DNA of 64,000 bases from assembly GCA_964035575.1 (NCBI GenBank), contig OZ037837.1, positions 806,001 through 870,000 on the forward strand, read 5' to 3'. Below are positions 13,896 to 61,544 of the stretch, piece by piece; positions within the stretch are counted from its first letter, which is position 1; each line of letters begins with the position of its first letter. The notes below the pieces were generated by a model. That model was not told the origin of the DNA. It searched no databases and worked only from the letters and a program-made list of their open reading frames with translations. A program made the position numbers and the translations under genes. Source of the DNA: Rhynchopus sp. YZ270_cl-10. Its lineage: Eukaryota; Euglenozoa; Diplonemea; Diplonemida; Diplonemidae.

Positions 13896-15491
13896 TCACT
13901 GTCGTAAGTGTTGTGGTAGCTTGCTGAGTACAGCCTTGCTGCACTTGTCCTTTCCACGTAAGGTCTTCAATGATGTGCACCCTTGGAGGAAGTTCCATCC
14001 TATTTCGGTGACAGCTCGGAATCCACTCAAGTCAACTGTGGACAAGGATGTGCACCCGGTGAGGAACAAATCTCCAATCGAGGTGACAGCTTGTAATCCA
14101 CTCAAGTCGACTTTCGTCAAAGCTTTGCAGTCACGAAGGAACTCGGTATGAATAACAGTCACAGCAGACGCACGACTGAGATCAATGCACGTCACTGTAG
14201 TTCCTTTCAAGAAGCTGTATGGAATCGCAGTCGCAACTTGTGCCTGCAGGAGCAAGCAAGCCACCTTCGGATCACGCACATACTCTAACCTTTGTGATGT
14301 AAGTGTTGTCTCACCCAACGCAACTAGTGCTGCAATGGCATCCTGCTTCGTCCTCTCTGTGTTAGAATGCGTTACAACAACCCTGTGACCCCTCAGCTGC
14401 ACCACGTCCTCTCCTTCTGCAATCACTTCATCTCTGAAAGTCATGTCGAAGCAGCCTTCACGCAACCCCACTGCAGACGCCACCTTCCGAAGCAAGTCCT
14501 TGCCCGTGTCATCCACACTCACCTCAATCTCGTGTTCCACTCCATCCAACCCCTGCACAAGGACAGGCACAAAAAGCGCAGACATCTGGGCAAGGGCGTC
14601 GTGCACGTTCGAAATAGGCAGATTCAGGGAAAACGTTGCGTGTGGGTCTGCAGCACCCACAAGGCGGTGGCGGTCTCCACTCGGTGCCATGCTGTTGATG
14701 CTCCGCACAACGGCCTGCGACTCTGTGACCGCACGCAGCACCTGGTCGTCCCCAAGCTGGCACACCGCCTCGCACTCAGCAATCATGTGTCCTGCCTTCG
14801 CAACAAACATCTTCAGCGCACACACCTCCCCTTCACGACTGAGTGCCTGTGTGAGGAATCTCCGTGCCAACTCCTCCTTACACACGACTTCGCTGCGCGA
14901 CACATCCTCACGCATCACGAGGTGCCCGACGTGTGTCTGCAGGAGAAGGTCTTTGTACCTCTCCTCCGTGAGTGGGAGTGCCTCAAGCACACGGCACTTC
15001 TCCTCTGCAGCAGTCCGCTGTGCTGCCAGGTCTGCCACGTGCGAGTGGAGGATGTTGCGCTGGCGTTTCATGTAGTCCGTGATGTCAACTGTCTTGTGCC
15101 CCGCATGTGTGTCGCACTGGTCACAACGCATGCAGATCAACACGTCTCCACACGCAGGGTCTTCACAGACGAGGGACAGCTCTTCTCCTGGGTGATGTGC
15201 ACACTTCGACGACGTCCCGTACGCAGTCACAGAAGCGCGATGTGCTTCACGGTCACGTGGCCTTGGGTGGCAAGCGTCATAGCACGCAGGTGTGTCGCAG
15301 AAGAACAGCTCCACGCACATCCCGCACTGCAGCTGTGCAGGCACGCCACAGTTCTCACAGCTCGGCATCTGTGGTGCGGTGGGCTGCGTGTCAGACCCCA
15401 TGTTGTGTGTTTCGAAGAGGTGGGAGGGTGCAGGGCCGTCCACCCGGGCCTTCTTTGTGGTGGGGGACTCACTCACGGAGGAACGCTTCAT
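13896..15491 (-). CDS. LRR gene A: B-box, coiled coil, ubiquitin-like and LRR protein (3 LRR units)
   Basis: 531 residues, class 1 N-terminus (MKRSSVSESPTTKKARVDG, with a basic patch that could act as a nuclear signal). Residues 45-84: first zinc finger, CENC...CGMC...FFC, B-box 1-like. Residues 97-132: clear B-box 2 (C97, H100, C109, C120, C123, H129, H132). Residues ~140-300: helical region, probably coiled coil. Residues 307-374: ubiquitin-like fold (GLDGVEHEIEVSVDDTGKDL ... QLRGHRVVV), with no terminal diglycine. From about 432: three 25-residue units of the pattern STVDLSGLQAVTSIG..FL..CTSL, BspA type, then a short cap ending LPQHLRQ. No RING finger is seen, so it resembles a TRIM protein without a ligase domain. 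The role is unknown; binding through the LRR and self-association through the coiled coil are the natural guess. Confidence 0.8.
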   Translation of the reverse strand: MKRSSVSESPTTKKARVDGPAPSHLFETHNMGSDTQPTAPQMPSCENCGVPAQLQCGMCVELFFCDTPACYDACHPRPRDREAHRASVTAYGTSSKCAHHPGEELSLVCEDPACGDVLICMRCDQCDTHAGHKTVDITDYMKRQRNILHSHVADLAAQRTAAEEKCRVLEALPLTEERYKDLLLQTHVGHLVMREDVSRSEVVCKEELARRFLTQALSREGEVCALKMFVAKAGHMIAECEAVCQLGDDQVLRAVTESQAVVRSINSMAPSGDRHRLVGAADPHATFSLNLPISNVHDALAQMSALFVPVLVQGLDGVEHEIEVSVDDTGKDLLRKVASAVGLREGCFDMTFRDEVIAEGEDVVQLRGHRVVVTHSNTERTKQDAIAALVALGETTLTSQRLEYVRDPKVACLLLQAQVATAIPYSFLKGTTVTCIDLSRASAVTVIHTEFLRDCKALTKVDLSGLQAVTSIGDLFLTGCTSLSTVDLSGFRAVTEIGWNFLQGCTSLKTLRGKDKCSKAVLSKLPQHLRQ

Positions 15492-17700: not shown

Positions 17701-17748
17701 CAAATGACTACATCGTATTCATCACGTTGACAAAAGAATAGACAGTAT

Positions 17749-17973
17749 TTACTTCAGAATTGCTAAAATTTTAAACTTTCGACCCGAAAGAGCGCGTTGC
17801 TTTCGGTGTATATTACTCCCAAACAACCACTGCGTTGTGGTCTGCAAAACGCAAATTGATATTACCACGTACGCCACTATAAAGCAGTGCATCCCATAGA
17901 CGTAAACCATCTTGTCACAAACGGAGAAAACAAAAACACAAAAACAAAGACTGATGCCAAGCCCTAGCCTCAT
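17749..17973 (-). CDS. Small hydrophobic open frame, repeated in the window
   Basis: 74 codons from ATG beginning MRLGLGISLCFCVFVFSVC, then a second hydrophobic stretch (CFIVAYVVISICVL). A near copy is at 46188-46427 (79 codons); partial copies without the same start lie in 32788-32935 and 38700-38860. The N-terminal 45 residues are alike between full copies while the tails differ. It lies in the duplicated LRR flank, so conservation may only reflect recent duplication. It could be a small membrane or secreted peptide; coding is unproven. Confidence 0.25.
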   Translation of the reverse strand: MRLGLGISLCFCVFVFSVCDKMVYVYGMHCFIVAYVVISICVLQTTTQWLFGSNIHRKQRALSGRKFKILAILK

Positions 17974-18312
17974 AGAGGCGTCTGTGCTAGGGTGAAGCGC
18001 AAACCAGACTGGGCCAAAGTCTCAACTCCACTCAGTATCACACGACGGGAAAGAAAAGAGGGTCAGTTCTCCACGAATCCGTAGAGATACAAAACACCTG
18101 CTTGAAACCCACAGCAGTGTTCCAAACATCCAAAACTCAAAAAATAAAAACCAATTTGGTGGACACACTTCTGATCCCAAGAAGGACCCCACCCTCACCT
18201 TCCCTCACCCAAACCCCAAAGAAATGCTCTGTTGTTCACAACACCCAGCCAACCCTCTCAAATCCTCCCAATTGTTTCGTATGACTCATCCCAACAAACC
18301 CCACCTCACTCT
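17940..18312 (-). repeat. Far half of the LRR gene B 3' flank, cut off by the 10.3-kb insertion
   Basis: Matches 46390-46775 and 50560-50935 closely, then stops abruptly after cccacctcactct. The continuation (gtcaccacctcccaaaaata) is found at 28638, directly after the insertion. It contains the conserved hairpin (ccctagcctcatagaggc...gctaggg at 17963-17993). Confidence 0.85.
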
Positions 18313-18849: not shown

Positions 18850-19249
18850 GGTAGCATACACAGTATACACAGTATACACAGTATACACAGTATACACAGT
18901 ATACACAGTATACACAGTATACACAGTATACACAGTATACACAGTATACACAGTATACACAGTATACACAGTATACACAGTATACACAGTATACACAGTA
19001 TACACAGTATACACAGTATACACAGTATACACAGTATACACAGTATACACAGTATACACAGTATACACAGTATACACAGTATACACAGTATACACAGTAT
19101 ACACAGTATACACAGTATACACAGTATACACAGTATACACAGTATACACAGTATACACAGTATACACAGTATACACAGTATACACAGTATACACAGTATA
19201 CACAGTATACACAGTATACACAGTATACACAGTATACACAGTATACACA
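18850..19249. repeat. 9-bp satellite, unit CACAGTATA
   Basis: About 44 nearly perfect copies. The same unit forms arrays at 54276-54524 and, inverted, at 63031-63210. Because 9 is a multiple of three, all frames stay open (IHSIHS, VYTVYT, CILCIL), which explains the long open frames here; they are not genes. Confidence 0.97.
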
Positions 19250-19257
19250 ACATACAC

Positions 19258-19582
19258 AATACAGTACAGTACAGTACAGTACAGTACAGTACAGTACAGT
19301 ACAGTACAGTACAGTACAGTACAGTACAGTACAGTACAGTACAGTACAGTACAGTACAGTACAGTACAGTACAGTACAGTACAGTACAGTACAGTACAGT
19401 ACAGTACAGTACAGTACAGTACAGTACAGTACAGTACAGTACAGTACAGTACAGTACAGTACAGTACAGTACAGTACAGTACAGTACAGTACAGTACAGT
19501 ACAGTACAGTACAGTACAGTACAGTACAGTACAGTACAGTACAGTACAGTACAGTACAGTACAGTACAGTACAGTACAGTAC
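19258..19582. repeat. 5-bp satellite, unit ACAGT
   Basis: About 64 perfect copies directly after the 9-bp array, joined by the transition cacaacatacacaata. ACAGT is contained in the 9-bp unit, so it may have arisen from it by slippage. Open frames across it are artefacts. Confidence 0.97.
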
Positions 19583-20049: not shown

Positions 20050-20159
20050 GTAAAACGACTAGAAAGACACGAAAACGAAACCAGAAAAAAACTTCACCAT
20101 TGGACGATTCTGGGTTCCGAGCTTCCAACACAAAATTTTTGTATTTTTTTTTCGCGATT

Positions 20160-28771: not shown

Positions 28772-30412
28772 TCACTCGCGTAAGTGTTGTGGTATCTTGC
28801 TGAGTACATCATTGCTGCACTTGTCCTTTCCATGCAAGGTCTTCAATAATGTGCACCCGTCAAGGAAAGCATACCCAACGGCCGTGACACGTTGCAATGC
28901 ACTCAAGTCAACTGTGGACAGGGATGTGCACCCTTGGAGGAACTGGTTCCCGATCGTGGTGACACCTTGCAATCCACTCAAGTCGACTGACAATAAAGAT
29001 GTGCACCCGAAGAGGAAGTGGTTCCCAATCGAGGTTACACCTTGTAATCCACTCAGGTCGACCTTGGTCAAAGCACTGCAGCCACAAAGTACCTGGTTCC
29101 CAATCGCAGTCACAGCAGACGTATGACTGAGATCAATGCACGTCACTGCAGTTCTTGCCAAGAAGTTGTCTGGAATCGCATTCACAACTAGTGCCTGCAG
29201 GAGCAAGCAAGCCACCTTCGGATCAGTCACCTGCTTCAATCTTGCTTCCGTAAATTTTGTCTCACCCAACACCTGAGATGCTGCAATGGCAACGTACTTC
29301 CTCTGTGTGTTCGTCTGCGTTACAACAACCCTGTGACCCCTCAGCTGCACCACGTCCTCTCCTTCTGCAATCACTTCATCTCTGAAAGTCATGTCGAAGC
29401 AGCCTTCACGCAACCCCACTGCAGACGCAACCTTCCGAAGCAAGTCCTTGCCCGTGTCATCCACACTCACCTCAATCTCGTGTTCCACTCCATCCAACCC
29501 CTGCACAAAGACAGGCACAAAAAGCGCAGACATCTGGGTAAGGGCGTCGTGCACGTTCGAAACAGGCAGCTTCAGGGAAAACGTTGCATGTAGGTGTGCA
29601 GCACCCACAAGGCGGTGGCGGTCTCCACTCGCTGCCATGCTGTTGATGCTCCGCACAACGGCCTGCGACTCTGTGACCGCACGCAGCACCTGGTCATTCC
29701 CAAGCTGGCACACCGCCTCGCACTCAGCAATCATGTGTCCTGCCTTCGCAACAAACGTCTTCAGCGCACACACCTCCCCTTCACGACTGAGTGCCTGTGT
29801 GAGGAATCTGCGTGTCACCTCCTCCTCACACACGACTTCGCTGCGCGACACATCCTCACGCATCACGAGGTGATCGACGTGTGTCTGCAGGAGAAGGTCT
29901 TTGTACCTGTCCTCCGTGGGTGGGAGTGCCTCAAGCACACGGCACTTCTCCTCTGAAGCAGTCCGCTGTGTTGTCAGGTCTGCCACGTGTGAGTGGAGGG
30001 TGTCACGCTGGCGTTTCACGTAGTCTGTGATGTCAACTGTCTTGTGTCCCGCATGTGTGTCGCACCTGTCACAGCGCATGCAGATCAACGCGTCTCCACA
30101 CGCAGGGTCTTCACAGACGAGGCACAGCTCTTGGCCTGGGTGATGTGCACACTTCGACGACGTCCCGTACGCAGTCACAGAAGCGCGATGTGCCTCACGG
30201 TCACGTGGCCTTGTGTGGCAAGCGTCATAGCACGCAGGTGAGTCGCAGAAGAACAGCTCCACGCACATCCCGCACTGCAGCTGTGCAGGCTTGTCACAGT
30301 TCTCACAGCTCGGCATCTGTGGTGTGGTGGGCTGCGTGTCAGACCCCATGTTGTGTGTTTCGAAGAGGTGGGAGGGTGCAGGGGTGTCTGGAAGGGGTTG
30401 GGTGGGTGGCAT
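28772..30412 (-). CDS. LRR gene B: B-box, coiled coil, ubiquitin-like and LRR protein (4 LRR units)
   Basis: 546 residues from the ATG of the class 2 N-terminus (MPPTQPLPDTPAPSHLFETH). An earlier in-frame GTG exists, but a strong acceptor-like sequence (pyrimidine run ending TGTGTGCTGCAG, plus-strand 30441-30469) lies between, so the ATG at 30412 is preferred and leaves a leader of about 28 bases. Domain order is as in gene A: B-box 1, B-box 2 (CAHHPGQELCLVCED), helical region, ubiquitin-like fold, then four LRR units and cap. LRR variable positions read IGNQVLCGC, IGNHFLFGC, IGNQFLQGC and VGYAFLDGC. The 3' flank is split by the 10.3-kb insertion 140 bp past the stop, so its normal transcript end may be affected. 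Confidence 0.8.
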   Translation of the reverse strand: MPPTQPLPDTPAPSHLFETHNMGSDTQPTTPQMPSCENCDKPAQLQCGMCVELFFCDSPACYDACHTRPRDREAHRASVTAYGTSSKCAHHPGQELCLVCEDPACGDALICMRCDRCDTHAGHKTVDITDYVKRQRDTLHSHVADLTTQRTASEEKCRVLEALPPTEDRYKDLLLQTHVDHLVMREDVSRSEVVCEEEVTRRFLTQALSREGEVCALKTFVAKAGHMIAECEAVCQLGNDQVLRAVTESQAVVRSINSMAASGDRHRLVGAAHLHATFSLKLPVSNVHDALTQMSALFVPVFVQGLDGVEHEIEVSVDDTGKDLLRKVASAVGLREGCFDMTFRDEVIAEGEDVVQLRGHRVVVTQTNTQRKYVAIAASQVLGETKFTEARLKQVTDPKVACLLLQALVVNAIPDNFLARTAVTCIDLSHTSAVTAIGNQVLCGCSALTKVDLSGLQGVTSIGNHFLFGCTSLLSVDLSGLQGVTTIGNQFLQGCTSLSTVDLSALQRVTAVGYAFLDGCTLLKTLHGKDKCSNDVLSKIPQHLRE

Positions 30413-35942: not shown

Positions 35943-37775
35943 CTAGTACGGTAGCTTGTTGAGTACATCACTGCTGCACTTGTCCTCTCCATGCAAGGTC
36001 AAACGGTGGCACCCGCGGAGGAACGCGGGCCCCATGCTGGTGACACCTTGTAATCCACTAAGATCAACAGTCGACAAAGATGTGCATCCCCATAGGCACG
36101 AGTGTCCAATACTGGTGACACGTTTTAATCCACTGAAGTCTATTGCAGACAGTGACGTGCACTGGTGGAGAAAGCATTCTCTAATGGTGGTGACAGAGTG
36201 TAATCCACTCAAGTCAACTGTCAACAACGATGTGCACAGGCTGAGGGAGTGGCTCCCAACTGAGGTGACAGCTTGGAGTCCACTTAGATCAAGTGTAGAC
36301 AATGATTCGCACCTGCTGAGGAACCCATCCCCAATCGAGGTGACAGCTTGCAATCCACTCAAGTCCACTGTGGACAATGATGTGCACCCCCAGAGGAACC
36401 CATCCCCAAGCGAGGTGACAGCTTGGAGTCCACTTAGGGAAACTGTGGACAAGGATGTGCACTCCATGAGGAAGTTGTTCCCAATCGAGGTGACACCTTG
36501 CAATCCACTCAAGTCCACTGTATACAATGATTCGCACCGACTGAGGAAATAGTCCCCAAGCGTGGTAACATATTGTAATCCACTCAAGTCGACTTCGGAC
36601 AAATACATGCAGCCACATAGGAAGTCCTTCCCAATCTCAGTCACAGCAGACGCATGACTGAGATCAATGCACTCCACATCAGTTCTCGAGAAGAAGTCGT
36701 CTGGGATCGCAGTCGCAACTCCTGCCTGCAGGAGCAAGCAAGCCACCTCCGGATCAGTCACCCGATAGAACCTTTTTGTTGTAATTTTTGTCTCACCCAA
36801 CGCACGAAGTGCTGCAATGGCGTCCCGCTTCCTCCTCTCTATCTGGGAATGTGTTACAACAACCCTGTGACCCCTCAGCTGCACCACGGTCTCTCCTTCT
36901 GCAATCACTTCACCTCTGAACCTCATGTCGAAGCAGCCTTCACGCAACCCCATTGCAGACGCCACCTTCCGAAGCAAGTCCCTGCCCGTGTCATCCACAC
37001 TCACCTCAATCTCGTGTTCCACTCCATCCAACCCCTGCACAAGGACAGGCACAACAAGAGCCGACATCTGGGCAAGGGCGTCGTGCACGCTCGAAACAGG
37101 CAGCTTCTGGGAAAACGTTGCGTGTGGGTCTGCAGCACCCACAAGGCGGTGGCGGTCTCCACTCGCTGCCATGCTGTTGATGCTCCGCACAATGGCCTGC
37201 GACTCTGTGACCGCACGCAGCACCTGGTCGTCCCCAAGCTGGCACACCGCCTTGCACTCAGCAATCATGTGTCCTGCCTTCGCAACAAACGTCTTCAGCC
37301 CACACATCTGCTCCTCTGCAGCAGTCTGCTGTGTTGTCAGGTCTGCCACATGCGAGTGGAGGATATTGCGCTGGCGCTTCATGTAGTCCGTGATGACAAC
37401 TGTCTTGTGTCCCGCATGTGTGTCGCACTTGGCACAGCACATGCAGATCAACACGTCTCCACACGCAGGGTCTTCACAGACGAGGGACAGCTCTTGGCCT
37501 GGGTGATGTGCACACTTCGACGACGCTCCAAACGAAGTCACAGAAGCGCGATGTGCCTCACGGTCACGTGGCCTTGGGTGGCAAGCGTCATAGCACGCAG
37601 GTGTGTCGCAGAAGAACAGCTCCTTGCACATCCCGCACTGCAGCTGTGCAGGCACGCCACAGTTCTCACAGCTCGGCATCTGTGGTGCGGTGGGCTGTGT
37701 GTCAGACACCATGTTGTGTGTTTCGAAGAGGTGGGAGGGTGCAGGGGTGTCTGGAAGGGGTTGGGTGGGTGGCAT
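35943..37775 (-). CDS. LRR gene C: B-box, shortened coiled coil, ubiquitin-like and long LRR (9 units)
   Basis: 610 residues, class 2 N-terminus. B-boxes and ubiquitin-like fold are as in the other copies, but about 60 residues of the helical region are missing in frame: AAEE is joined directly to QMCGLKTFVAKAGH, removing the part that corresponds to residues 166-225 of gene A. The LRR part is the longest, with nine 25-residue units. Unlike the other copies it has units rich in variation: LGDYFLSRC, IGNNFLMEC, LGDGFLWGC, VGSHSLSLC, IRECFLHQC, IGHSCLWGC, MGPAFLRGC. The C-terminus ends KLPY, earlier than the usual LPQHLR. The 3' flank is unlike that of the other copies. Loss of coiled coil with gain of LRR units may change oligomer state and binding. 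Confidence 0.8.
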   Translation of the reverse strand: MPPTQPLPDTPAPSHLFETHNMVSDTQPTAPQMPSCENCGVPAQLQCGMCKELFFCDTPACYDACHPRPRDREAHRASVTSFGASSKCAHHPGQELSLVCEDPACGDVLICMCCAKCDTHAGHKTVVITDYMKRQRNILHSHVADLTTQQTAAEEQMCGLKTFVAKAGHMIAECKAVCQLGDDQVLRAVTESQAIVRSINSMAASGDRHRLVGAADPHATFSQKLPVSSVHDALAQMSALVVPVLVQGLDGVEHEIEVSVDDTGRDLLRKVASAMGLREGCFDMRFRGEVIAEGETVVQLRGHRVVVTHSQIERRKRDAIAALRALGETKITTKRFYRVTDPEVACLLLQAGVATAIPDDFFSRTDVECIDLSHASAVTEIGKDFLCGCMYLSEVDLSGLQYVTTLGDYFLSRCESLYTVDLSGLQGVTSIGNNFLMECTSLSTVSLSGLQAVTSLGDGFLWGCTSLSTVDLSGLQAVTSIGDGFLSRCESLSTLDLSGLQAVTSVGSHSLSLCTSLLTVDLSGLHSVTTIRECFLHQCTSLSAIDFSGLKRVTSIGHSCLWGCTSLSTVDLSGLQGVTSMGPAFLRGCHRLTLHGEDKCSSDVLNKLPY

Positions 37776-45294: not shown

Positions 45295-46909
45295 TGTGTC
45301 TGTTGGTATCCCTTTCCTGGAGTTGGCGGTGTTGGGGGTTTTGGGGGTTCCTCTCCTCCGACTAGAAAACAACTGCTGCACAGTCAAAATAGTCTCTGTG
45401 CACAAAGGGGGGCAAGAAGTACAGCAGGAAAATAGTTCAGGTATGGGTAGTGACGTGAAGGGTTTTGGAGAGAAAAATATGTTCGGTTGGTTCTTCTTTG
45501 TTTTGCTCTGGGTTTATGTTTTGTGCTTTTTATTTTGAAAACTTGATTGTATGTATCGTAGACACCCGAGGATGCACACCACTGTACCAACCGCTATTAA
45601 GTAACACCTCATGAACACGGTGATCTCTCTGCCTTTTTTGTTTTCCTCAAAAAAAAGCATCGCGTCTACGTACTGGTTTTGTCGTACCTGAGAAAACGCG
45701 TGCATGTTGCATACACACGCGTCATTGCACCCAACGATGAGGCTCATTGACACACTCCAACGAACTTCACATCCCGGAAAAATGGTATGACGAAAAGAGC
45801 AACAATACAAAAGCGATAAGACAAAAACTAAGCCTACTCTGCTTAGTCACACGTACCTTTTTCATTAAAGGACAGCCATACATGGGGGCACAGACAGCAC
45901 ACCTTCCCCAGGGTGTGGCAGGGTCCCTCGCTGAAAACGTGGGACTCTCACCTCACTTTTCTTTCTTAATCCCAGAACTAGACACGCACACAAACACCCC
46001 TCCCCTACCTTACCCTCCCTCCCCTCTGCCCCTCTGACCAATGAAACGTTAGTAGCCACCCTCATTTATAAAGAAAAGTTTGACATGAAATACACCAGAA
46101 CGATCGTGAACAGTGTACCTTGGTACAACTGGTGTACCGGGTGTACCCCAACCATGCACAGTCCAACATCCATTTTGTGATTTACATCTACAAAGTACAG
46201 GAACAAGAAGGGAAAAAGCAAACAAACACAGACACCCCTCCGAAGGGCCGTTGTTTTCGGTTAATATTACACCCTAACAACCACTGCCTTCTGGTCTGCA
46301 AAACGCAAATTGATATCACCACGTACACCACTATTAAGCAGTGCATCCCATAGACGTAAACCATCTTGTCACAAACGGAGAAAACAAAAACACAAAAACA
46401 AAGACCGATGCCAAGCCCTAGCCTCATAGAGGCGTCTGTGCTAGGGTGAAGCGCAAACCAGACTGGGCCAAAGTCTCAACTCAACTCAGTATCACACGAC
46501 GGGAAAGAAAAGAGGGTCAGTTCTCCACGAATCCGTAGAGATACAAAACACCTGCTTGAAACCCACAGCAGTGTTCCAAACATCCAAAACCCAAAAAATA
46601 AAAACAAAACCAATTTGGTGGACACACTTCTCATCCTAAGAAGGACCCCATCCTCACCTTCCCTCACCCAAACCCCAAAGAAATGCTCTGTTGTTCACAA
46701 CACCCAGCCAACCCCCTCAAATCCTCCCAATTGTTTCGTATGACTCATCCCAACAAACCCCACCTCACTCTGTCACCACCTCCCAAAAATAATAAAGAAG
46801 CACACCTCAGCACAGTGCAGAGCAGCCGTCGTGCAGCTGACCACACAGTGCGAGGGGTGAAGATGCAACAACAACAACTGTTACAAAGTGAACGCTTTCT
46901 TGCTTCTCA
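45295..46909. other. 5' flank of the LamG gene and 3' flank of LRR gene D
   Basis: 45295-45380 may hold acceptor sites (minus strand GACTGTGCAG and TTGTTTTCTAG). 45370-45780 is shared with 5425-5830 and includes the tRNA-Asp-like segment at 45550-45592. 46188-46427 is the second full copy of the small hydrophobic frame. 46390-46909 is the LRR 3' flank with the conserved hairpin. Confidence 0.55.
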
Positions 46910-48652
46910 CTAGCGTAAGTGTTGTGGTAGCTTCATGAGCACAACCTTGCTGCACTTGTCCTTGCCATGCAAGGTCTTCAATGATGTGCACTCGCCGAGG
47001 AAGATCCGCCCAATTGCGGTGACAGATTGTAGTCCACTTAGATCAACTGTGGACAATGATGCGCACCTGAAGAGGAACTGGAACCCAATCGAGGTGACAG
47101 CTTGCAATCCACTCAGATCAACTGTGGACAGGGATGTGCACCCTTGGAGAAAGTAGTTCCCAATCGAGGTGACACCTTGGAATCCACTCAAGTCAACTGT
47201 TGACAATGATGTGCACCTGAAGAAGAACATGTCACCAATCGTGGTGACACCTTGCAATCCACTCAAGTTAACTTTGGTCAAAGCTGTGCAGTTACGAAGG
47301 ACCTCCTTCCCAATCACAGTCACAGCAGACGCATGACTGAGATCAATGCACGTCACATCGGTTTCCGAGAAGAACTCGTCTGCAATCGCAGTCGCAACTC
47401 CTGCCTGCAGGAGCAAGCAAGCCACCTTCGGATCAGTCACCTGGTCCAATCTTGCTTCTGTAAGTGTTGTCTCACCCAACGCACGAAGTGCTGCAATGGC
47501 AGCCTGCTTCCTCCTCTCTGTGTTGACCTGCGTTACAACAACCCTGTGACCCCTCAGCTGCACCACGTCCTCTCCTTCTGCAATCACTTCATCTCTGAAA
47601 GTCATGTCGAAGCAGCCTTCACGCAACCCCACTGCAGACGCCACCTTCCGAAGCAAGTCCCTGCCCGTGTCATCCACACTCACCTCGATCTCGTGTTCCA
47701 CTCCATCCAACCCCTGCACAAGGACAGGCACAACAAGCGCAGACATCTGGGTAAGGGCGTCGTGCACGTTCGAAACAGGCAGCTTCAGGGAAAACGTTGC
47801 ATGTGGGTCTGCAGCACCCACAAGGCGGTGGCGGTCTCCACTCGCTGCTGCCATGCTGTTGATGTTCCGCACAACGGCCTGCGACTCTGTGAATGCACGC
47901 AGCACCTGGTCATTCCCAAGCTGGCACACCGCCTCGCACTCAGCAATCACGTGTCCTGCCTTCGCAACAAACGTCTTCAGCGCACACACCTCCCCTTCAC
48001 GACTGAGTGCCTGTGTGAGGAATCTGCGTGTCACCTCCTCCTCACACATGACTTCGTTGCGCGACACATCCTCACGCATCACGAGGTGCTCGACGTTTGT
48101 CTGCAGGAGAAGATCTTTGTACCTGTCTGTAAGTGGGAGTGCCACAAACACACGGCACTTCTCCTCTGCAGCAGTCCGCTGTGCTGCCAGGTCTGCCACG
48201 TGTGAGCAGAGAGTGTCACGCTGGCGTTTCATGTAGTCCGTGATGTCAACTGTCTTGTGTCCCGCATGTGTGTCGCACTTGTCACAGCGCATGCAGATCA
48301 ACGCGTCTCCACACGCAGGGTCTTCACAGACGAGGCACAGCTCTTGGCCTGGGTGATGTGCACACTTCGACGACGTCCCGTACGCAGTCACAGAAGCACG
48401 ATGTGCCTCACGGTCAAGTGGCCTTGTGTGGCAAGCGTCATAGCACGCAGGTGTGTCGCAGAAGAACAGCTCCTTACACATCCCGCACTGCAGCTGTGCA
48501 GGCACGCCACAGTTCTCACAGCTCGGCATCTGTGGTGCGGTGGGCTGCGTGTCAGACACCATGTTGTGTGTTTCGGAGAGGTGGGAGGGTGCAGGGCCAT
48601 CCACCCGGGCCTTCTTTGTGGTGGGGGACTCACTCACGGAGGAACGCTTCAT
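46910..48652 (-). CDS. LRR gene D: B-box, coiled coil, ubiquitin-like and LRR protein (5 LRR units)
   Basis: 580 residues. The frame is open for 77 codons before it, but the class 1 start MKRSSVSESPTTKKARVDG shared with genes A and E is preferred. Domains as in gene A. Five LRR units with variable parts IGKEVLRNC, IGDMFFFRC, IGNYFLQGC, IGFQFLFRC and IGRIFLGEC. One extra Ala (SMAAASGDR) and a one-residue loss (LPLTDRYKD) in the helical region show small indels. The C-terminus is LPQHLR and the shared 3' flank follows. Confidence 0.8.
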   Translation of the reverse strand: MKRSSVSESPTTKKARVDGPAPSHLSETHNMVSDTQPTAPQMPSCENCGVPAQLQCGMCKELFFCDTPACYDACHTRPLDREAHRASVTAYGTSSKCAHHPGQELCLVCEDPACGDALICMRCDKCDTHAGHKTVDITDYMKRQRDTLCSHVADLAAQRTAAEEKCRVFVALPLTDRYKDLLLQTNVEHLVMREDVSRNEVMCEEEVTRRFLTQALSREGEVCALKTFVAKAGHVIAECEAVCQLGNDQVLRAFTESQAVVRNINSMAAASGDRHRLVGAADPHATFSLKLPVSNVHDALTQMSALVVPVLVQGLDGVEHEIEVSVDDTGRDLLRKVASAVGLREGCFDMTFRDEVIAEGEDVVQLRGHRVVVTQVNTERRKQAAIAALRALGETTLTEARLDQVTDPKVACLLLQAGVATAIADEFFSETDVTCIDLSHASAVTVIGKEVLRNCTALTKVNLSGLQGVTTIGDMFFFRCTSLSTVDLSGFQGVTSIGNYFLQGCTSLSTVDLSGLQAVTSIGFQFLFRCASLSTVDLSGLQSVTAIGRIFLGECTSLKTLHGKDKCSKVVLMKLPQHLR

Positions 48653-49494
48653 TTTTTCTGTGTTTTCTGAGATCTGTGTGTGGATCGTGAGTGTGATATT
48701 GTCTGTCATTGACACGTGGTCAAAACCAGTCAGGTAAGTGACAAGTGAATTACTTGTCGCTTCGCTTGTCAAAGAAATGACGAGTGACATCACTTGCCAC
48801 CTATCGTTGGCCGTGTCGTGCATCGGTTGCCTCCTCCGAAGCATGCACAACCGCTGCTGCGATGCCTTCCCAAGACAAAGCATTTCATCACTTTTCGCCT
48901 TTCTTTCAACTACTCCCGAGGGGCCAAGCTCCCCTTTCTAGTTGTGCGGAAATGTGTGAAGATGTGTGAAGATGTGTCATCAAGAAAAGAACACAAAACA
49001 CAAAGCTTTGCAAGACGAACCTGAGCCTCGCATGATAATCACCTGAAAAGGAGAGGGGGTGCCTCTTGGGGTGTGTGCTTTTTTATTTGAGATCGGTTTT
49101 CTTCTATCGACAATGACCCACAAAAGAGGGGCTTTTTCGGGGGATTGTTTTTTCCATCAACAACTGCCCAGGGAAAGGCACAATATATTATTGGGTACAG
49201 TGCTAGCTTCCTCAAAGAGACGTGTAGCGGGTGGTATGCAGTACTCAAAATGTATTTGGCATCCAACAAAAGTCCACAAAATTAGTACAAAAATCACCAA
49301 ATTGGTATAGCTGTAAAGGGGTGATTCACTTCAAAACAACATAGCTGCACTTTTCCTTTCCATGCAAGGTCGTCAACGCTATATTAAACTTGAAAAACGT
49401 GATCCACCCCGCAAAAAGAAAAAGCAGCAAAAGGGAAGGATGGCACCACGGTGTGCCAGAGAGTGGCTTGATCCCATTTGCTGACTTATACCCA
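48653..49494. other. Class 1 LRR 5' flank of gene D with an LRR relic
   Basis: 48653-49320 is shared with the flank of gene E. 49333-49372 (aaaacaacatagctgcactt ... gcaaggtcgtcaacgct) matches the 3' coding end of LRR gene F, a fragment of about 40 bp. Confidence 0.5.
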
Positions 49495-51326: not shown

Positions 51327-53231
51327 TCAGATAGCTGACTCGCGTAAGTGTTGTGGTAGCTTCTTGAGTACAGCCTTTCTGCACTTGTCCTTTCCATGCA
51401 AGGTCTTCAATAATGTGCACTCGTGGAGGAAGTGCTCCCCAACGGCCTTGACAGCTTGCAATCCAGTTAGATCAACTGTGTGCAATGATGCGCACCCGGT
51501 GAGGAAGTGCCGCCCAATCGAGGTGACACCTTGTAATCCACTCAAATCAACTGTGGACAAGGATGTGCACCCGAGGAGAAACTGGTGCCCAATCGATGTG
51601 ACGCATTGCAATCCACTCAAATCAACTGTTGACAAGGATGTGCACTGTTGGAGGAACTGTGCCCTGATCCTGGTGACACCTTGGAATGCACTCAGATCAA
51701 CCGTCGACAATGATGTGCACCCGGCGAGGAAGCCGTCCGCAATCGAGCTGACAGCTTGGAATCCACTTAGATCAGCTGTGGGCAACGACGCACACCCGCT
51801 GAGGAACATACACCCAATCGTGGTGACAGCTTGCAATCCACTCAGGTCGACGTTGGTCAAAGCTGTGCAGTTATAAAGTACGAAGTTCCCAATCGCAGTC
51901 ACAGCAGACGCATGACTGAGATCAATGCACGTCACTGTAGTTTTCCAGAAGAAGTTGTCTGGAATCGCAGTCGCAACTTGTGCCTGCAGGAGCAAGCAAG
52001 CCACCTTCGGATCAGTCACCTGCTTCAATCTTGCTTCTGTAAGTGTTGTCTCACCCAACGCACGAAGTGCTGCAATGGCATCCTGCTTCCTCCTCTGTGC
52101 ATTTGTCTGCTTTACAACAACCCTGTGACCCCTCAGCTGCACCACGTCCTCTCCTTCTGCAATCACTTCATCTCTGAAAGTCATGTCGAAGCCGTCTTCA
52201 CGCAACCCCACTGCAGACGCCACCTTCCGAAGCAAGTCCCTGCCCGTGTCAGCCACACGGACCTCAATCTCGTGTTCCACTCCATCCAACCCCTGCACAA
52301 GGACAGGCACAAAAAGCGCAGACACCTGGGCAAGGGCGTCGTGCACGTTCGAAACAGGCAGATTCAGGGAAAACGTTGCGTGTGGGTCTGCAGCACCCAC
52401 AAGGCGGTGGCGGTCTCCACTCGCTGCCATGCTGTTGATGTTCCGCACAACGGCCTGCAACTCTGGGACCGCACGCAGCACCTGGTCGTCCCCAAGCTGG
52501 CACACCGCCTCGCACTCAGCAATCATGTGTCCTGCCTTCGCAACAAACATCTTCAGCGCACACACCTCCCCTTCACGACTGAGTGCCTGTGTGAGGAATC
52601 TCCGTGCCAACTCCTCCTCACACACGACTTCGCTGCGCGACACATCCTCACGCATCACGAAATGCCCGACGTGTGTCTGCAGGAGAAGGTCTTTGTACCT
52701 GTCCTCCGTGAGTGGGAGTGCCTCAAACACACGGCACTTCTCCTCTGCAGCAGTCCGCTGTGCTGCCAGGTCTGCCACGTGTGAGTGGAGGGTGTCACGC
52801 TGGCGTTTCATGTAGTCCGTGATGTCAACTGTCTTGTGTCCCGCATGTGTGTCGCACTTGTCACAACGCATGCAGATCAACACGTCTCCACACGCAGGGT
52901 CTTCACAGACGAGGGACAGCTCTTGGCCTGGGTGATGTGCACACTTCGACGACGTCCCGTACGCAGTCACAGAAGCACGATGTGCCTCACGGTCACGTGG
53001 CCTTGGGTGGCAAGCGTCATAGCACGCAGGTGTGTCGCAGAAGAACAGCTCCTTGCAGATCCCGCACTGCAGCTGTGCAGGCACGCCACAGTTCTCACAG
53101 CTCGGCATCTGTGGTGCGGTGGGCTGCGTGTCAGACACCATGTTGTGTGTTTCGGAGAGGTGGGAGGGTGCAGGGCCGTCCACCCGGGCCTTCTTTGTGG
53201 TGGGGGACTCACTCACGGAGGAACGCTTCAT
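51327..53231 (-). CDS. LRR gene E: B-box, coiled coil, ubiquitin-like and LRR protein (7 LRR units)
   Basis: 634 residues from the class 1 ATG. Domains as in gene A; all B-box Cys/His are kept. Seven LRR units with variable parts IGNFVLYNC, IGCMFLSGC, IADGFLAGC, IRAQFLQQC, IGHQFLLGC, IGRHFLTGC and VGEHFLHEC. The C-terminus is LPQHLRESAI, four residues longer because an unrelated 250-bp stretch replaces the usual downstream sequence at this point. Confidence 0.8.
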   Translation of the reverse strand: MKRSSVSESPTTKKARVDGPAPSHLSETHNMVSDTQPTAPQMPSCENCGVPAQLQCGICKELFFCDTPACYDACHPRPRDREAHRASVTAYGTSSKCAHHPGQELSLVCEDPACGDVLICMRCDKCDTHAGHKTVDITDYMKRQRDTLHSHVADLAAQRTAAEEKCRVFEALPLTEDRYKDLLLQTHVGHFVMREDVSRSEVVCEEELARRFLTQALSREGEVCALKMFVAKAGHMIAECEAVCQLGDDQVLRAVPELQAVVRNINSMAASGDRHRLVGAADPHATFSLNLPVSNVHDALAQVSALFVPVLVQGLDGVEHEIEVRVADTGRDLLRKVASAVGLREDGFDMTFRDEVIAEGEDVVQLRGHRVVVKQTNAQRRKQDAIAALRALGETTLTEARLKQVTDPKVACLLLQAQVATAIPDNFFWKTTVTCIDLSHASAVTAIGNFVLYNCTALTNVDLSGLQAVTTIGCMFLSGCASLPTADLSGFQAVSSIADGFLAGCTSLSTVDLSAFQGVTRIRAQFLQQCTSLSTVDLSGLQCVTSIGHQFLLGCTSLSTVDLSGLQGVTSIGRHFLTGCASLHTVDLTGLQAVKAVGEHFLHECTLLKTLHGKDKCRKAVLKKLPQHLRESAI

Positions 53232-53877: not shown

Positions 53878-55244
53878 GGGCAAACAAATTTTTCGTTTGC
53901 GTTCGCGTCCTAAGGGTACCCAGAAAAACCTAGGCAGGCAGGCAAAAAAAAGTTTGTTTCAAAAAAAAGTTTTTTTCAAAATGTGCTTGCTGAACCCGGG
54001 AGTTGACCCTCCGGAGTCGGTTTTTTCTCTTTTTTTTTTCCTGTTGACACTGGTTTTGACTATTTTCTCATATTTCCCAAAATGGAACCACCTAAAGTTA
54101 TATTATAAAATAGCAGGTGAGCACTTTTTCCCCGGATGAGTACCCAGGCCACAGGCCACAGTACGGTGGTGCTGGTGAAGCTTTTAACGCCGGCATTTGC
54201 ATTTTCGGAATCCGTCCGTCCAGTGGTGGGGTCAATTTGCTGAAATGGACAAGTTCTCGTTTTTGATCAATTTCCTCACAGTATACACAGTATACACAGT
54301 ATACACAGTATACACAGTATACACAGTATACACAGTATACACAGTATACACAGTATACACAGTATACACAGTATACACAGTATACACAGTATACACAGTA
54401 TACACAGTATACACAGTATACACAGTATACACAGTATACACAGTATACACAGTATACACAGTATACACAGTATACACAGTATACACAGTATACACAGTAT
54501 ACACAGTATACACAGTATACACAGACGGAAATTTCCCAGGGTCGGGAGATGAGCAGGGGAGGGAAGAATGTTAACTCACAGCCCAGGGTGTCTCCTAATT
54601 CTGGAAATTTTTCAAAATTCCGACATCCGGAAGCAATTTTTTTCCCTGGAAAAAAAGTGGGTTTGCAGCCCCAAAACATACTGCGATTGGCATTTCCGGA
54701 ATCCGTCCGCGCTGTGGTGGGGTCACTTTGCCGAAATAGCCAAGTTCTTGGTTTTGGACAAAATGAGTGTAAGGTAAAGGGGGTAGGTAAATCCCACAAC
54801 CCAGATTTTCTCCCTGATCCTGAAAACATGAAAATGCCCGAAAACACCGGCATTTGCATTTTCGGAATCCGTCCGGCCAGTGGTGGGGTCAATTTGCCAA
54901 AATGGACAAGTTCTTGCTTGTGGTCAAAACCCGTCAGCGTAACGTAAAGGGGGCTAAGTGTTTGCCTGTAGAAACTGGTAGGAACAGACAGCGCCGCAGG
55001 CGCACGGTACCCAACATACTTTTTTCGGGAAAATACCAAAACATAAGCACTTTAAACACGTCCCTAATTTTTCCGCAAACTTTTTCCCTGGCAATTTTTT
55101 TCCAAAGACCGGAAGCGGAAGCAAATTAGGAAACACCCTGACACAGCCTCAACACAAAAAAATTGAAAAAAACTTTTTTCCCCAAAAATCTCAAAAAAAC
55201 CTAGGCAGGCAGGACGCGAACGCATAAAAAAAGTTTGTTTGCCC
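53878..55244. mobile_element. 1.37-kb inverted-repeat element with TAA target duplication
   Basis: The left tip GGGCAAACAAA and right tip TTTGTTTGCCC, with the match continuing at CGTTTGCGTTCGCGTCCT against AGGACGCGAACG and at CCTAGGCAGGCAGG (direct). TAA stands on both sides (53875-53877, 55245-55247). The flank at 62400-62450 gives the empty site (ggtataacttgaaaggggtg). A G-rich tip with TAA duplication fits PIF/Harbinger-type MITEs. The interior holds a 9-bp satellite and the dispersed GGAATCCGTCC motif, no transposase. Confidence 0.8.
54276..54524. repeat. 9-bp satellite, unit CACAGTATA
   Basis: About 27 copies of the unit also found at 18850-19249, inside the 1.37-kb element. Confidence 0.97.
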
Positions 55245-55247
55245 TAA

Positions 55248-56130: not shown

Positions 56131-57798
56131 TCAATTGAGCAAGCTTCGGGGTAGACTCAGACTTATAGTTTTGAAAACAACATAGCTGCACTTTTCCTTT
56201 CCCTGCAAGGTCGTCAACGCTGTGCACCAGTGGAGGAAGTGCTGCCCAACGGCCGTGACAGCTTGCAACCCACTTAGATCAACTGTGGACAATGATGCGC
56301 ACCCAAAGAGGAAGTTGTTCCCAATCGAGGTGACAGCATGGAATCCACTCAAGTCAACTGTCGATAATGATGTGCACCCGAAAAGGAAGTTGCTCCCAAT
56401 CGAGGTGACACCTTGCAATCCACCCAATTCGACTTTGGTCAAAGCTGTGCAGTCACGAAGGAAGTCGTTCCCGATCACAGTCACAGCAGACGCATGACTG
56501 AGATCAATGCACGTCACTGCAGAACTCGAGAAGAAGTAGTCTGGAATCGCAGTCGCAACTTGTGCCTGCAGGAGCAAGCAAGCCACCTTCGGATCAGTCA
56601 CCTGCTTCAATCTTGCTTCTGCAAATATTGTCTCACCCAACGCACGAAGTTCTGCAATGGCATCATCCTTCCTCTGTGTGTTGACCTGCGTTACAACAAC
56701 CCTGTGACCCCTCAGCTGCACCACGTCCTCTCCTTTTGCAATCACTTCATCTCTGAAAGTCATGTCGAAGCCGTCTTCACGCAACCTCACTGCAGACGCC
56801 ACCTTCCGAAGCAAGTCCCTGCCCGTGTCATCCACACTCACCTCAATCTCGTGTTCCACTCCATCCAACCCCTGCACAAAGACAGGCACAAAAAGCGCAG
56901 ACACCTGGGCAAGGGCGTCGTGCACGTTCGAAACAGGCAGATTCAGGGAAAACTTTGCGTGTGGGTCTGCAGCACCCACAAGGCGGTGGCGGTCTCCACT
57001 TGGCGCTGCCATGCTGTTGATGTTCCGCACAACGGCCTGCGACTCTGTGAATGCACGCAGCACCTGGTCATTCCCAAGCTGGCACACCGCCTCACACTCA
57101 GCAATCATGTGTCCTGCCTTCGCAACAAACGTCTTCAGCGCACACACCTCCCCTTCACGACTGAGTGCCTGTGTGAGGAAGCTCCGTGCCAACTCCTCCT
57201 CACACACGACTTCGCTGCGCGACACATCCTCACGCATCACGAGGTGCCCGACGTGTGTCTGCAGGAGAAGGTCTTTGTATCTGTCTTTGTACCTGTCCTC
57301 CGTGGGTGGGAGTGCCTCAAGCACATGGCACTTCTCCTCTGCAGCAGTCCGCTGTGCTTCCAGGTCTGCCACGTGTGAGCAGAGGGTGTCACGCTGGCGT
57401 TTCATGTAGTCCGTGATGTCAACTGTCTTGTGTCCCGCATGTGTGTCGCACTTGTCACAGCGCATGCAGATCAACGCGTCTCCACACGCAGGGTCTTCAC
57501 AGACGAGGCACAGCTCTTGGCCTGGGTGATGTGCACACTTCGACGACGCTCCGAACGAAGTCACAGAAGCGCGATGTGCCTCACGGTCACGTGGCCTTGG
57601 GTGGCAAGCGTCATAGCACGCAGGTGTGTCGCAGAAGAACAGCTCCACGCACATCCCGCACTGCAGCTGTGCAAGCACGCCACAGTTCTCACAGCTCGGC
57701 ATCTGTGGTGCGGTGGGCTGCGTGTCAGACCCCATGTTGTGTGTTTTGAAGAGGTGGGAGGGTGCAGGGGTGTCTGGAAGGGGTTGGGTGGGTGGCAT
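56131..57798 (-). CDS. LRR gene F: B-box, coiled coil, ubiquitin-like and LRR protein (4 LRR units)
   Basis: 555 residues from the class 2 ATG. Domains as in the others. The helical region has a duplicated RYKD (EDRYKDRYKDLLLQ), a 12-bp slippage. Four LRR units (IGNDFLRDC, IGSNFLFGC, IGNNFLFGC, VGQHFLHWC). The C-terminus departs from the family after KEKCSYVVFKT, ending in about 12 unrelated residues because the 3' end is rearranged, so the usual LPQHLR is lost. Probably still folded; expression uncertain. Confidence 0.75.
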   Translation of the reverse strand: MPPTQPLPDTPAPSHLFKTHNMGSDTQPTAPQMPSCENCGVLAQLQCGMCVELFFCDTPACYDACHPRPRDREAHRASVTSFGASSKCAHHPGQELCLVCEDPACGDALICMRCDKCDTHAGHKTVDITDYMKRQRDTLCSHVADLEAQRTAAEEKCHVLEALPPTEDRYKDRYKDLLLQTHVGHLVMREDVSRSEVVCEEELARSFLTQALSREGEVCALKTFVAKAGHMIAECEAVCQLGNDQVLRAFTESQAVVRNINSMAAPSGDRHRLVGAADPHAKFSLNLPVSNVHDALAQVSALFVPVFVQGLDGVEHEIEVSVDDTGRDLLRKVASAVRLREDGFDMTFRDEVIAKGEDVVQLRGHRVVVTQVNTQRKDDAIAELRALGETIFAEARLKQVTDPKVACLLLQAQVATAIPDYFFSSSAVTCIDLSHASAVTVIGNDFLRDCTALTKVELGGLQGVTSIGSNFLFGCTSLSTVDLSGFHAVTSIGNNFLFGCASLSTVDLSGLQAVTAVGQHFLHWCTALTTLQGKEKCSYVVFKTISLSLPRSLLN

Positions 57799-59051: not shown

Positions 59052-61544
59052 TCACTGGCGTAAGTGTTGTGGTAGCTTGCTGAGTACAGCCTTGCTGCAC
59101 TTGTCCTTTCCATGCAAGGTCTTCAATGATGTGCACCCGTCAAGGAAAGCATACCCAACGGCCGTGACACGTTGCAATGCACTCAAGTCCACTGTGGACA
59201 AGGATGTGCAACCGTGGAGGAAGAAGTTCCCAATCGAGGTGGCAGCTTTGAATCCACTCAAGTCAACCGTCGACAATGATGTGCACCCGAAGAGGAACTG
59301 GTGCCCAATCGAGGTGACAGTTTTGAATCCACTTAGATCAACTGTGGACAAGGATGTACACCCTTGGAGAAAGCTGTTCCCAATCGAGGTGACAGCTTGT
59401 AATCCACTCAAGTCAACCGTCGACAAGGATGTGCACCTAAAGAGGAAGTGGCTCCCAATCGAGGTGACACCTTGCAATCCACTCAAGTCAACTGTGGACA
59501 AGGATGTGCACCCCAAGAGGAACCCGTCACCAATCGTGGTGACAGCTTGTAATCCACTCAAGTTAACTTTGGTCAAAGCTGTGCAGTCACGAAGGAACTC
59601 GTTCCCAATCACAGTCACAGCAGACGCATGACTGAGATCAATGCACGTCACTGTAGTTCCTTTCAAGAAGAACTCGTCTGCAATCGCAGTCGCAACTCCT
59701 GCCTGCAGGAGCAAGCAAGCCACCTTCGGATCAGTCACCTGCTTCAATCTTGCTTCTATAAACGTTTTTAAAAATAGGATGGAACACCCCGTTCCGAAGA
59801 GGAATGCAGCCACCCCGAAAAAGTGGGGGTGTGTCGCCAGTCTGCGGTGAGAAACTCCTCCCTGAGTCAAAACTGCCGCTGGTTAGCGCTGGCTAAGGTT
59901 CCCTTTTCACCCGGTCACAATCGAGTCTCGCTCCGTCGGCGTTGACTGCACTGCAAAGCCCCTTGGTCCACCGTCGTAAAAAGACACCACAAAAAGCGTA
60001 GGTAGGTGGGGGACCGGCAGGTTACAGACAGAGGCAGTACGGAGCTAAGGTGTCGGCGGTCGCGGGTTGCCGTGGAGGCCTGCCCCCCGTGGAGGTCTTG
60101 CGATCTGGGAGTTGTGGAAGTGATCGGCTCAGAGTACCCTGCATTCCATGCACGACTCGAGCTCCTTGTGGTAGGATATTGGGGTCCCGGGAAGCACCCT
60201 TCGCCCCGAGGTCCCACCACCCCAGACAGTTTGTAGGTCTAAAAGCACAACGTACTTGTCCAGGACCTGGCCGCTCTTGGGTTCTCTCGAAAAAAAGATA
60301 CTAATCCCGTACGCCCGTGCACCGCAAAAATGTGCTATGGGGGGCGGTCCGCCGTCGGGCTGCTTCAATCTTGCTTCTGTAAGTGTTGTCTCACCCAACG
60401 CATGAAGTGCTCCAATGGCATCCTGCTTCCTCCTCTCTGTGTTGGTCTGCTTTACAACAACCCTGTGACCCCTCAGCTGCACCACGTCCTCTCCTTCTGC
60501 AATCACTTCATCTCTGAAAGTCATGTCGAAGCCGTCTTCACGCAACCCCACTGCAGACGCCACCTTCCGAAGCAAGTCCCTGCCCGTGTCATCCACACTC
60601 ACCTCAATCTCGTGTTCCACTCCATCCAACCCCTGCACAAGGACAGGCACAAAAAGCGCAGACATCTGGGCAAGGGCGTCGTGCACGTTCGAAACAGGCA
60701 GATTCAGGGAAAAGGTTGCGTGTGGGTCTGCAGCACCCACAAGGCGGTGGCGGTCTCCACTCGCTGCCATGCTGTTGATGTTCCGCACAACGGCCTGCAA
60801 CTCTGGGACCGCACGCAGCACCTGGTTGTCCCCAAGCCGGCACACCGCCTTGCACTCAGCAATCATGTGTCCTGCCTTCGCAACAAACGTCTTCAGCGCA
60901 CACACCTCCCCTTCACGACTGAGTGCCTGTGTGAGGAAGCTCCGTGCCACCTCCTCCTCACACACGACTTCGCTGCGCGACACATCCTCACGCATCACGA
61001 GGTGCCCGACGTGTGTCTGCAGGAGAAGGTCTTTGTACCTGTCCTCCGTGGGTGGGAGTGCCTCAAGCACACGGCACTTCTCCTCTGCAGCAGTCCGCTG
61101 TGATGTCAGGTCTGCCACGTGTGAGTGGAGGGTGTCACGCTGGTGTTTCATGTAGTCCGTGATGTCAACTGTCTTGTGTCCCGCATGTGTGTCGCACTTG
61201 TCACAACGCATGCAGATCAACGCGTCTCCACACGCAGGGTCTTCACAGACGACGCACAGCTCTTGGCCTGGGTGAAGTGCACACTTCGACGACGCTCCGA
61301 ACGAAGTCACAGAAGCACGATGTGCCTCACGGTCACGTGGCCTTGTGTGGCAAGCGTCATAACACGCAGGTGTGTCGCAGAAGAACAGCTCCACGCACAT
61401 CCCGCACTGCAGCTGTGCAGGCACGCCACAGTTCTCACAGCTCGGCATCTGTGGTGCGGTGGGCTGCGTGTCAGACCCCATGTTGTGTGTTTCGAAGAGG
61501 TGGGAGGGTGCAGGGGTGTCTGGAAGGGGTTGGGTGGGTGGCAT
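59052..61544 (-). pseudogene. LRR gene G, class 2, interrupted by a 602-bp insertion (7 LRR units)
   Basis: The N-terminal half reads from the ATG at 61544 (MPPTQPLPDTPAPSHL) through B-boxes, helical region and ubiquitin-like fold to TEARLKQ near 60360, then runs into foreign sequence and stops at 60129. The C-terminal half resumes at about 59757 with EARLKQVTDPKVACLLLQ and contains seven LRR units and the usual LPQHLRQ end. No other frame break is seen, so the insertion is the sole visible lesion and is recent compared with the duplication. A truncated protein with B-boxes, coiled coil and ubiquitin-like fold but no LRR could still be made. Confidence 0.85.
59758..60359 (-). mobile_element. 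602-bp retroposon-like insertion in LRR gene G
   Basis: Bounded by an exact 19-bp duplication (CTGCTTCAATCTTGCTTCT at 59739-59757 and 60360-60378). On the minus strand it starts CCCGACGGCGGACCGCC and ends with two short hairpins (CACCCC...GGGGTG, TTCC...GGAA) and an A-rich end CTATTTTTAAAAACG. A long duplication plus an A-rich 3' end fit target-primed reverse transcription, so it is a non-autonomous non-LTR element. No other copy is in the window, and it is GC-richer than its surroundings. Confidence 0.75.

Follow-up and report, generated by a model that had tools for sequence, protein, structure and literature searches.

A Rhynchopus gene family with predicted B-box, ubiquitin-like and leucine-rich repeat parts, and a mobile-element hot spot at its domain seam

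The question raised by this locus is whether a tandem array of genes with a constant and a variable half, present in the diplonemid Rhynchopus sp. YZ270_cl-10, encodes a diversifying recognition family. The array lies in a window of 64,000 nucleotides (C5:806,001-870,000; contig C5 is OZ037837.1) of a 152.4-Mb assembly comprising 126 contigs. An earlier description of the window, made from its letters and referred to here as the sequence-only reading, had proposed seven genes, A to G, with 3, 4, 9, 5, 7, 4 and 7 leucine-rich repeat (LRR) units of exactly 75 bp, which follow B-box, helical and ubiquitin-like (Ubl) parts. These numbers were borne out: all seven genes are located on the minus strand, the spacing of the units is 25 codons throughout, and 39 of 39 units could be aligned without gaps. 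Gene G is a member of the array, but it is not one continuous gene, its two frames being kept apart by a 602-bp insertion. We propose, with confidence evenly balanced for and against, that these genes represent a large intracellular TRIM/Ubl/LRR family acting as a cytosolic recognition repertoire, in which the seam between the Ubl and LRR parts hosts a site-specific element. The array is part of a much larger family in this genome; that the family is specific to its euglenozoan lineage belongs to the same proposal.

The seam hot spot and the extent of the family

The most solid new fact is the hot spot at the Ubl/LRR seam. The element inserted in gene G has at least 44 matches in the genome (best 40 of 184 candidates scored), 42 of them with 99-100% identity over its length, and exact searches with its ends yielded 62 occurrences of the first 25 bases and 60 of the last 27 bases. 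At 48 places the family motif TTGGGTGAG is found 24-34 bases ahead of the element start; the pattern used here differs from that of the 25-base 5' end, and the 48 places are not a strict subset of the 62. The insertion point lies at an equal offset from an AGG/AGA codon in 46 of the 48, and the flanking strings are distinct in 37. A strict pattern for the Ubl/LRR seam, which matched the genome 480 times (241 and 239 by strand; reversed control, 0), is fitted by 42 of these places, so that approximately 42 of 480 motifs are occupied.

Twenty copies were fetched for inspection, and 17 of them touch the seam: it is present on both sides of 13 copies and on one side of two, and two more are members of tandem pairs within it. 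The remaining three lie elsewhere; off-target sites include a microsatellite (L042) and a CAG-type repeat. Of the 20 copies, 19 carry 18-20 bp duplications whose sequence depends on the site, indicating separate insertions, and gene G and a copy near C5:805 kb carry different duplications at the same site. Tandem pairs of elements, 19-20 bp apart on C7, C14 and C21, suggest re-insertion into a regenerated target. No terminal inverted repeat was visible by eye in the element, and the long duplications together with the exact targeting suggest that it may integrate by target-primed reverse transcription; we infer that it is a site-specific retroelement resembling short interspersed elements (SINE-like). 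No Rfam family was found in the window, and the element locus L036 yielded one match far below the gathering score.

Two longer loci were inspected for an autonomous partner. In L054 (C7:1663300-1670900), a seam copy of the element is interrupted by ~6.8 kb in which ~122-bp tandem repeats are visible by eye; one frame of this insert encodes a ubiquitin carboxyl-terminal hydrolase domain (PF00443, 1.6e-44). The 7.4-kb L054 was rejected as the autonomous partner, since the pieces of the element share 9 bp, much as a nested insertion would leave them. No reverse transcriptase was seen by eye in the L054 frames of at least 70 amino acids, one of which was scanned, with L054 and L055 the only loci inspected for a partner. 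In L055 (C5:386600-388800), the seam of a Ubl-LRR gene holds a full element (94% identity) and, ~1.3 kb further on, another 3' end, 128 bp long, so that the insertion is composite.

A tblastn search of C5:706,001-970,000 placed the constant half at 13 loci, which lie between 780 and 891 kb and are without exception on the minus strand; a further, distant match (38% identity) is located at 939 kb. Since some of these loci lie beyond the window, the window shows only part of the array. Long same-strand gene runs characterize this region, 43 of the 46 long frames kept after filtering being on the minus strand. In the whole genome, at least 125 places were found (best 70 of 1952 candidates scored), and 83 of those listed are on C5: 47 on the minus strand below 1.034 Mb and 36 on the plus strand above 1.142 Mb, which form 25 and 21 clusters, respectively, among the matches listed. 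Between 1.034 and 1.142 Mb there is a divergent strand switch of the family, as in polycistronic euglenozoan genomes. LRR_5 repeats, detected in the window genes by the Pfam scan, have at least 220 matches in the genome (best 150 of 2622 candidates scored), and 326 proteins were retrieved at E 0.001 with residues 1-112 (Ubl/seam) of the paralogue P0120 as the query, 120 of them among those listed. All 480 places of the seam pattern, of which approximately the first 100 were listed, are presumably family genes, and the organism appears to carry hundreds of TRIM-like/Ubl-like genes with LRRs. Nine pattern matches were obtained in viral contigs, and no relative was confirmed among them. No publication on this family or on the seam hot spot was found among the titles and abstract openings listed, preprints and most subscription journals lying outside the search.

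The predicted architecture is well supported: B-box motifs and a TRIM5-like coil would be followed by a SUMO/ubiquitin-like domain and a BspA-type LRR solenoid (Table 1), although the fold comparison barely tests the parts outside residues 386-634 of gene E. Matches to zf-B_box in genes A, C and E (E 0.0011-0.0066) are all below the Pfam cut-off, which is exceeded at three places on C2 and in the paralogue P0062. The first B-box-like motif matches ANCHR-like_BBOX in the paralogues P0070 and P0073 (E 0.0022 and 0.0098, below the cut-off). In gene C, ~57 amino acids of the helical part have been lost in frame (63 gap columns, as compared with 2-7 in the other genes). The Pfam scan gave no RING match in 8 window frames (E 0.1) and no NACHT/NB-ARC match in the window frames. 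No signal peptide was seen by eye in genes A-F, no predictor having been run, and the family proteins are probably intracellular.

The variable strip of the LRR units

The differences between units had been placed by the sequence-only reading at the two residues after IG and the two before the Cys, i.e. at unit positions 19, 20, 23 and 24, and it is there that the changes peak. In the 39 units, the amino-acid entropy reaches 3.4 bits at position 19, 3.6 at 20 and 3.5 at 23; it is 2.1 bits at positions 24 and 16, at most 1.9 bits elsewhere and 0 at Cys25. Positions 19, 20 and 23 are also the highest family-wide (3.6-3.8 bits; 120 of 165 proteins found). When these proteins were split into 59 with QCGxC (284 distinct units) and 61 without it (403 distinct units), the entropy of position 24 was 2.8 and 3.1 bits, respectively, and that of position 16 reached 3.4 bits in the group without the motif.

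The expectation that the changes would lie on one exposed face holds in part: they are focused on a few surface-type positions, but these belong to the convex segment and not to the concave strand. Because DSSP assigns the main beta-strand of the gene E model to unit positions 5-7, and because by LRR convention the strand forms the concave face and the variable segment the convex side (available part of PMC4598782), positions 19, 20, 23 and 24 would fall on the solenoid's convex or descending side, the faces being derived from DSSP and this convention rather than from computed solvent accessibility. The available part of the same article describes the convex face as rarely used by Toll-like receptors.

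The ratio of nonsynonymous to synonymous rates (dN/dS) was calculated per position, as the sequence-only reading had advised, and it exceeds 1 at the strip when pooled dS is used and is low at buried positions. In the window set (25 units, the first and second units of each gene being excluded), the four positions reach 2.20 against pooled dS (bootstrap 1.61-2.96), with 0.24 at concave outward positions and 0.11 at buried ones. The 12-gene set (56 of the 68 units from array genes, first units excluded, four identity cuts) yielded 2.14, 2.29, 2.30 and 2.30 at the four positions, 0.18-0.46 at the concave outward positions 4, 5 and 7, and 0.10-0.27 at buried positions. Tree-based counting in this set gave 1.65 against the strip's own synonymous change (P 0.012, uncorrected), and counting per position gave P <0.05 only at positions 24 (P 0.009) and 13 (P 0.049). 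As the positions had been picked on the window array, two other arrays, on C83 and C2, served as further tests. In the C83 array (3 genes, 26 units), the ratio is 2.35-3.64 against pooled dS at the four positions and 0.08-0.25 at the concave ones. In the C2 array (3 genes, 8 regular units each), 5 of 32 columns are variable at the four positions versus 7 of 168 elsewhere (Fisher P 0.027). Diversifying selection on the strip is thus supported, not proven, by the substitution patterns of the window array and C83, and more weakly by those of C2.

Each first unit has first units as its top three matches in other genes (62-71 of 75 bases). Between the last units of B and G, 73 of 75 bases agree, and an internal unit usually has in another gene a counterpart that equals or exceeds its best match within its own gene. 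This pattern fits whole-gene duplication followed by gain and loss of units, possibly with exchange between genes.

A recognition repertoire and its alternatives

In the proposed recognition repertoire, the family would grow by tandem duplication and by gain and loss of 75-bp units, amino-acid change being concentrated on one strip of the solenoid. The coil would dimerise the protein and the Ubl would link it to ubiquitin-type signalling, while fast-changing targets would be bound by the LRR strip. The result would be a set of cytosolic recognition proteins that are TRIM- or NLR-like in logic and not in ancestry.

Animal TRIM proteins, e.g. TRIM5, share with the window genes the B-box zinc fingers and a coiled coil after the B-box, the TRIM order being RING, B-box and coiled coil with the RING at the N terminus (PMC5533445, available part). 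The window genes differ in having no RING match, a Ubl after the coil and a C-terminal module that is mostly BspA-type LRR, and the sequence match to TRIM5 is weak (1.4e-4). The analogy with plant NLRs and lamprey VLRs, which had been drawn from the window alone, can be extended to fish NLRs and stands as far as modular units, their gain and loss, and focused amino-acid change are concerned, but it fails in geometry. Variation in VLRs and NLRs is mainly concave, whereas the window genes vary on the convex side and conserve positions 4, 5 and 7 of the concave strand; they also differ in the missing NACHT/NB-ARC match, and there is no evidence of somatic assembly in the window family. Large, fast-changing families for intracellular recognition are known mainly in animals, plants and fungi. 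If the proposal is true, a RING-less, LRR-tipped TRIM-like solution arose again in a lineage of flagellates, this time with variability on the opposite face of the solenoid.

Several results weigh against the recognition repertoire. Diversification of the concave strand is absent, as seen from the low ratios at positions 4, 5 and 7 in both the 12-gene set and C83. Measured against their own proportion of synonymous changes (pS), the four positions reach only 1.26 (0.97-1.74) in the window set and 0.98-1.28 in C83, and the same-codon ratio is only ~1.0-1.7 overall, which leaves room for a locally raised rate of substitution or conversion. The own-codon pS is itself raised at the variable positions (0.40 versus 0.36 pooled in the 12 genes; 0.26-0.49 versus 0.11-0.29 in C83), and in the rest of the C2 LRR the proportion of nonsynonymous changes (pN) also exceeds pS (0.0143 versus 0.0101). 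The constant halves are ~91-97% identical in DNA, much as the sequence-only reading had them, but they are without strong constraint: the pooled pN/pS of the window array is 0.99 by NG86, with an omega of 1.30 by IQ-TREE, above that value. In C83, pN/pS of these halves is 0.79-1.86, with few changes, and in C2 pN is 0.0052 and pS 0.0192. Finally, of the 13 array loci, two are split by the element and one is a fragment.

These same-codon ratios, relaxed constant halves and damaged loci would be expected of a birth-and-death family of the trypanosome RHS type, maintained largely by duplication and conversion, in which the strip would be a surface under weak constraint where substitution or conversion is locally faster. 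We consider this explanation somewhat unlikely, given that the outward-type positions 4, 5 and 7 are conserved, that the four positions reach 2-3 times the pooled dS in two separate arrays, and that the other frames of the 13-locus array are open. According to the available part of PMC7563717, RHS genes are a hot spot for ingi and RIME, which leave the genes as two halves, and their N-terminal half is conserved, the C-terminal half being highly variable in T. brucei. Both features recur here, as a conserved N-terminal and a variable C-terminal half and as an exact intragenic hot spot for a short, putative retroelement. The proteins and the element were compared by description only, and the RHS proteins differ in having an ATP/GTP-binding motif where the window genes have B-box, Ubl and LRR parts. 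No RHS-named Pfam family occurs among the matches of the window frames in the general Pfam scan, no direct RHS comparison having been made. The seam hot spot would be another euglenozoan case, beside trypanosome RHS, of a multigene family serving as the landing site of a short element.

Alternatively, the proteins could be adaptors of the ubiquitin/SUMO system that have many internal partners and have become neofunctionalised, with no part played by pathogens or non-self. The presence of the Ubl both in B-box members and in LRR-only paralogues points in this direction, as do the C-termini of the paralogues P0078, P0109, P0112 and others, and of many of P0100-P0120, which by eye are CaaX-like (CVCM) or basic and like a nuclear localization signal (NLS); such varied ends suggest that the family may be sent to several compartments. 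We regard this alternative as unlikely, since strip-focused change and recent near-identical tandem turnover are more typical of conflict families.

A bolder version of the recognition repertoire, which we consider doubtful, would have several hundred genes reading their targets by the convex side, together with a dedicated seam retroelement whose retrotransposition is coupled to turnover of the repertoire. Each insertion would regenerate its target, and near-identical elements at one codon of many genes could drive the exchange of LRR halves between constant halves.

For the 602-bp insertion alone, a mobile intron (introner) that is spliced out, leaving the split genes functional, was also considered. 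Introns exist in this genome, and many target sites hold AG and then GT, where exact removal would leave GT-AG ends (by eye). In gene G, however, no offset within the duplication yields a GT 5' end, other copies of the element interrupt a microsatellite and a CAG-type repeat, the sole inspected intron, in a flagellar-rod gene, is GT-AG, and a recent burst of introners would not be expected to prefer a single gene family. An introner is, on this evidence, quite improbable.

The units of BspA-like and TpLRR proteins have ~23 residues, whereas those of the window genes have 25 and follow N-terminal B-boxes, a coil and a Ubl, with no signal peptide seen by eye in A-F. These differences make surface adhesins of the kind found in Trichomonas or Entamoeba very improbable, even though TvBspA of Trichomonas and TpLRR of Treponema have the same LRR class and fold, belong to large families, vast in the case of TvBspA (PMC2843621, available part), and two of three C2 paralogues have a hydrophobic stretch at their C-terminal end (by eye), so that membrane anchoring is conceivable for some relatives. 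Programmed, somatic or retroelement-driven mutagenesis of the variable codons, as by a diversity-generating retroelement, would account for the tight focus of change on the same codons and for their raised pS, but it is hardly credible, as the mean variability over the 75 unit positions has no strong adenine bias by consensus base (A 0.22, C 0.20, G 0.13, T 0.12).

Coordinates and genomic context

Table 1. Array genes, the inserted element and the predicted parts of gene E, in window positions.
Feature	Position	Strand	Details
Gene A, B-box/coil/Ubl/LRR, open frame	13896..15491	-	LRR 13977-14201, 3 units
Gene B, open frame	28772..30412	-	LRR 28853-29152, 4 units
Gene C, open frame	35943..37775	-	LRR 36009-36683, 9 units
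Gene D, open frame	46910..48883	-	LRR 46988-47362, 5 units
Gene E, open frame, structure-predicted copy	51327..53231	-	LRR 51417-51941, 7 units
Gene F, open frame	56131..57798	-	LRR 56224-56523, 4 units
Gene G, constant half (B-boxes, coil, Ubl), as far as the insertion	60360..61544	-	
Gene G, LRR half, beyond the insertion	59052..59757	-	LRR 59133-59657, 7 units
602-bp mobile element in the Ubl/LRR seam of gene G	59758..60359	-	
19-bp target-site duplication, upstream copy	60360..60378	-	
19-bp target-site duplication, downstream copy	59739..59757	-	
Gene E, first zinc-binding B-box-like motif, residues ~44-83	52983..53102	-	Read from sequence; coordinates by arithmetic
Gene E, second B-box, residues ~96-137	52821..52946	-	Pfam zf-B_box E 0.0032, below cut-off; TRIM5 match by sequence and fold
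Gene E, long helices like the TRIM5 coiled coil, residues 137-270	52422..52823	-	Predicted structure, fold comparison
Gene E, SUMO/ubiquitin-like domain, residues 307-376	52104..52313	-	FERM_N match (ubiquitin-like fold), predicted structure
Gene E, helical Ubl/LRR seam (ALGETTLTEARLKQ...)	51972..52103	-	Equivalent of the element target site
Gene E, BspA-type LRR solenoid, 7 x 75 bp	51417..51941	-	Variable positions 19, 20, 23, 24

The proteins begin in two ways, with MKRSSVSESP... (NLS-like by eye) in A, D and E and with MPPTQPLPDT... in B, C, F and G. Short ATGTGTGAAG repeats are located upstream of A, D, E and G (window positions 16037, 48952, 53526 and 62059).

Paraflagellar rod proteins are a hallmark of the Euglenozoa, and PF05149 has 30 matches in this genome (best 2.6e-88), as compared with 0 in 14 control genomes, a control that says little as the named ones are prokaryotes. 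The 20-mer spliced-leader core was found in one exact copy, L032 (C14:1213001-1213020; control, 0). As the core is followed by CAG rather than GT, L032 probably derives from a spliced mRNA instead of being a spliced-leader gene. The rod proteins, the same-strand gene runs with the strand switch on C5 and this single core copy all point to Euglenozoa. Spliced-leader trans-splicing is described as common to all Euglenozoa (PMC10161547, available part), and, judging from the available part of PMC12621601, a GT-AG intron would fit Diplonemidae better than Hemistasiidae.

Several other features of the window were noted. Positions 6556-10373 contain a retroelement with a reverse transcriptase (RVT_1, 8.5e-06, below the cut-off), in which an overlapping frame reads by eye like a DIRS-like tyrosine recombinase. 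A tandem pair of frames of ~591 and 617 amino acids, which have no Pfam match and in which several hydrophobic stretches can be seen by eye, is located at 417-2192 and 2791-4644. Between C and D, at 41068-45513, a frame of 1481 amino acids has Laminin_G_3 matches and, by eye, a stalk rich in Ser, Thr and Pro and a hydrophobic segment at the C terminus. Long near-perfect microsatellites, with units of the ACAGT and ATACACAGT types, occupy positions 18856-19582, 54277-54524 and 63034-63215.

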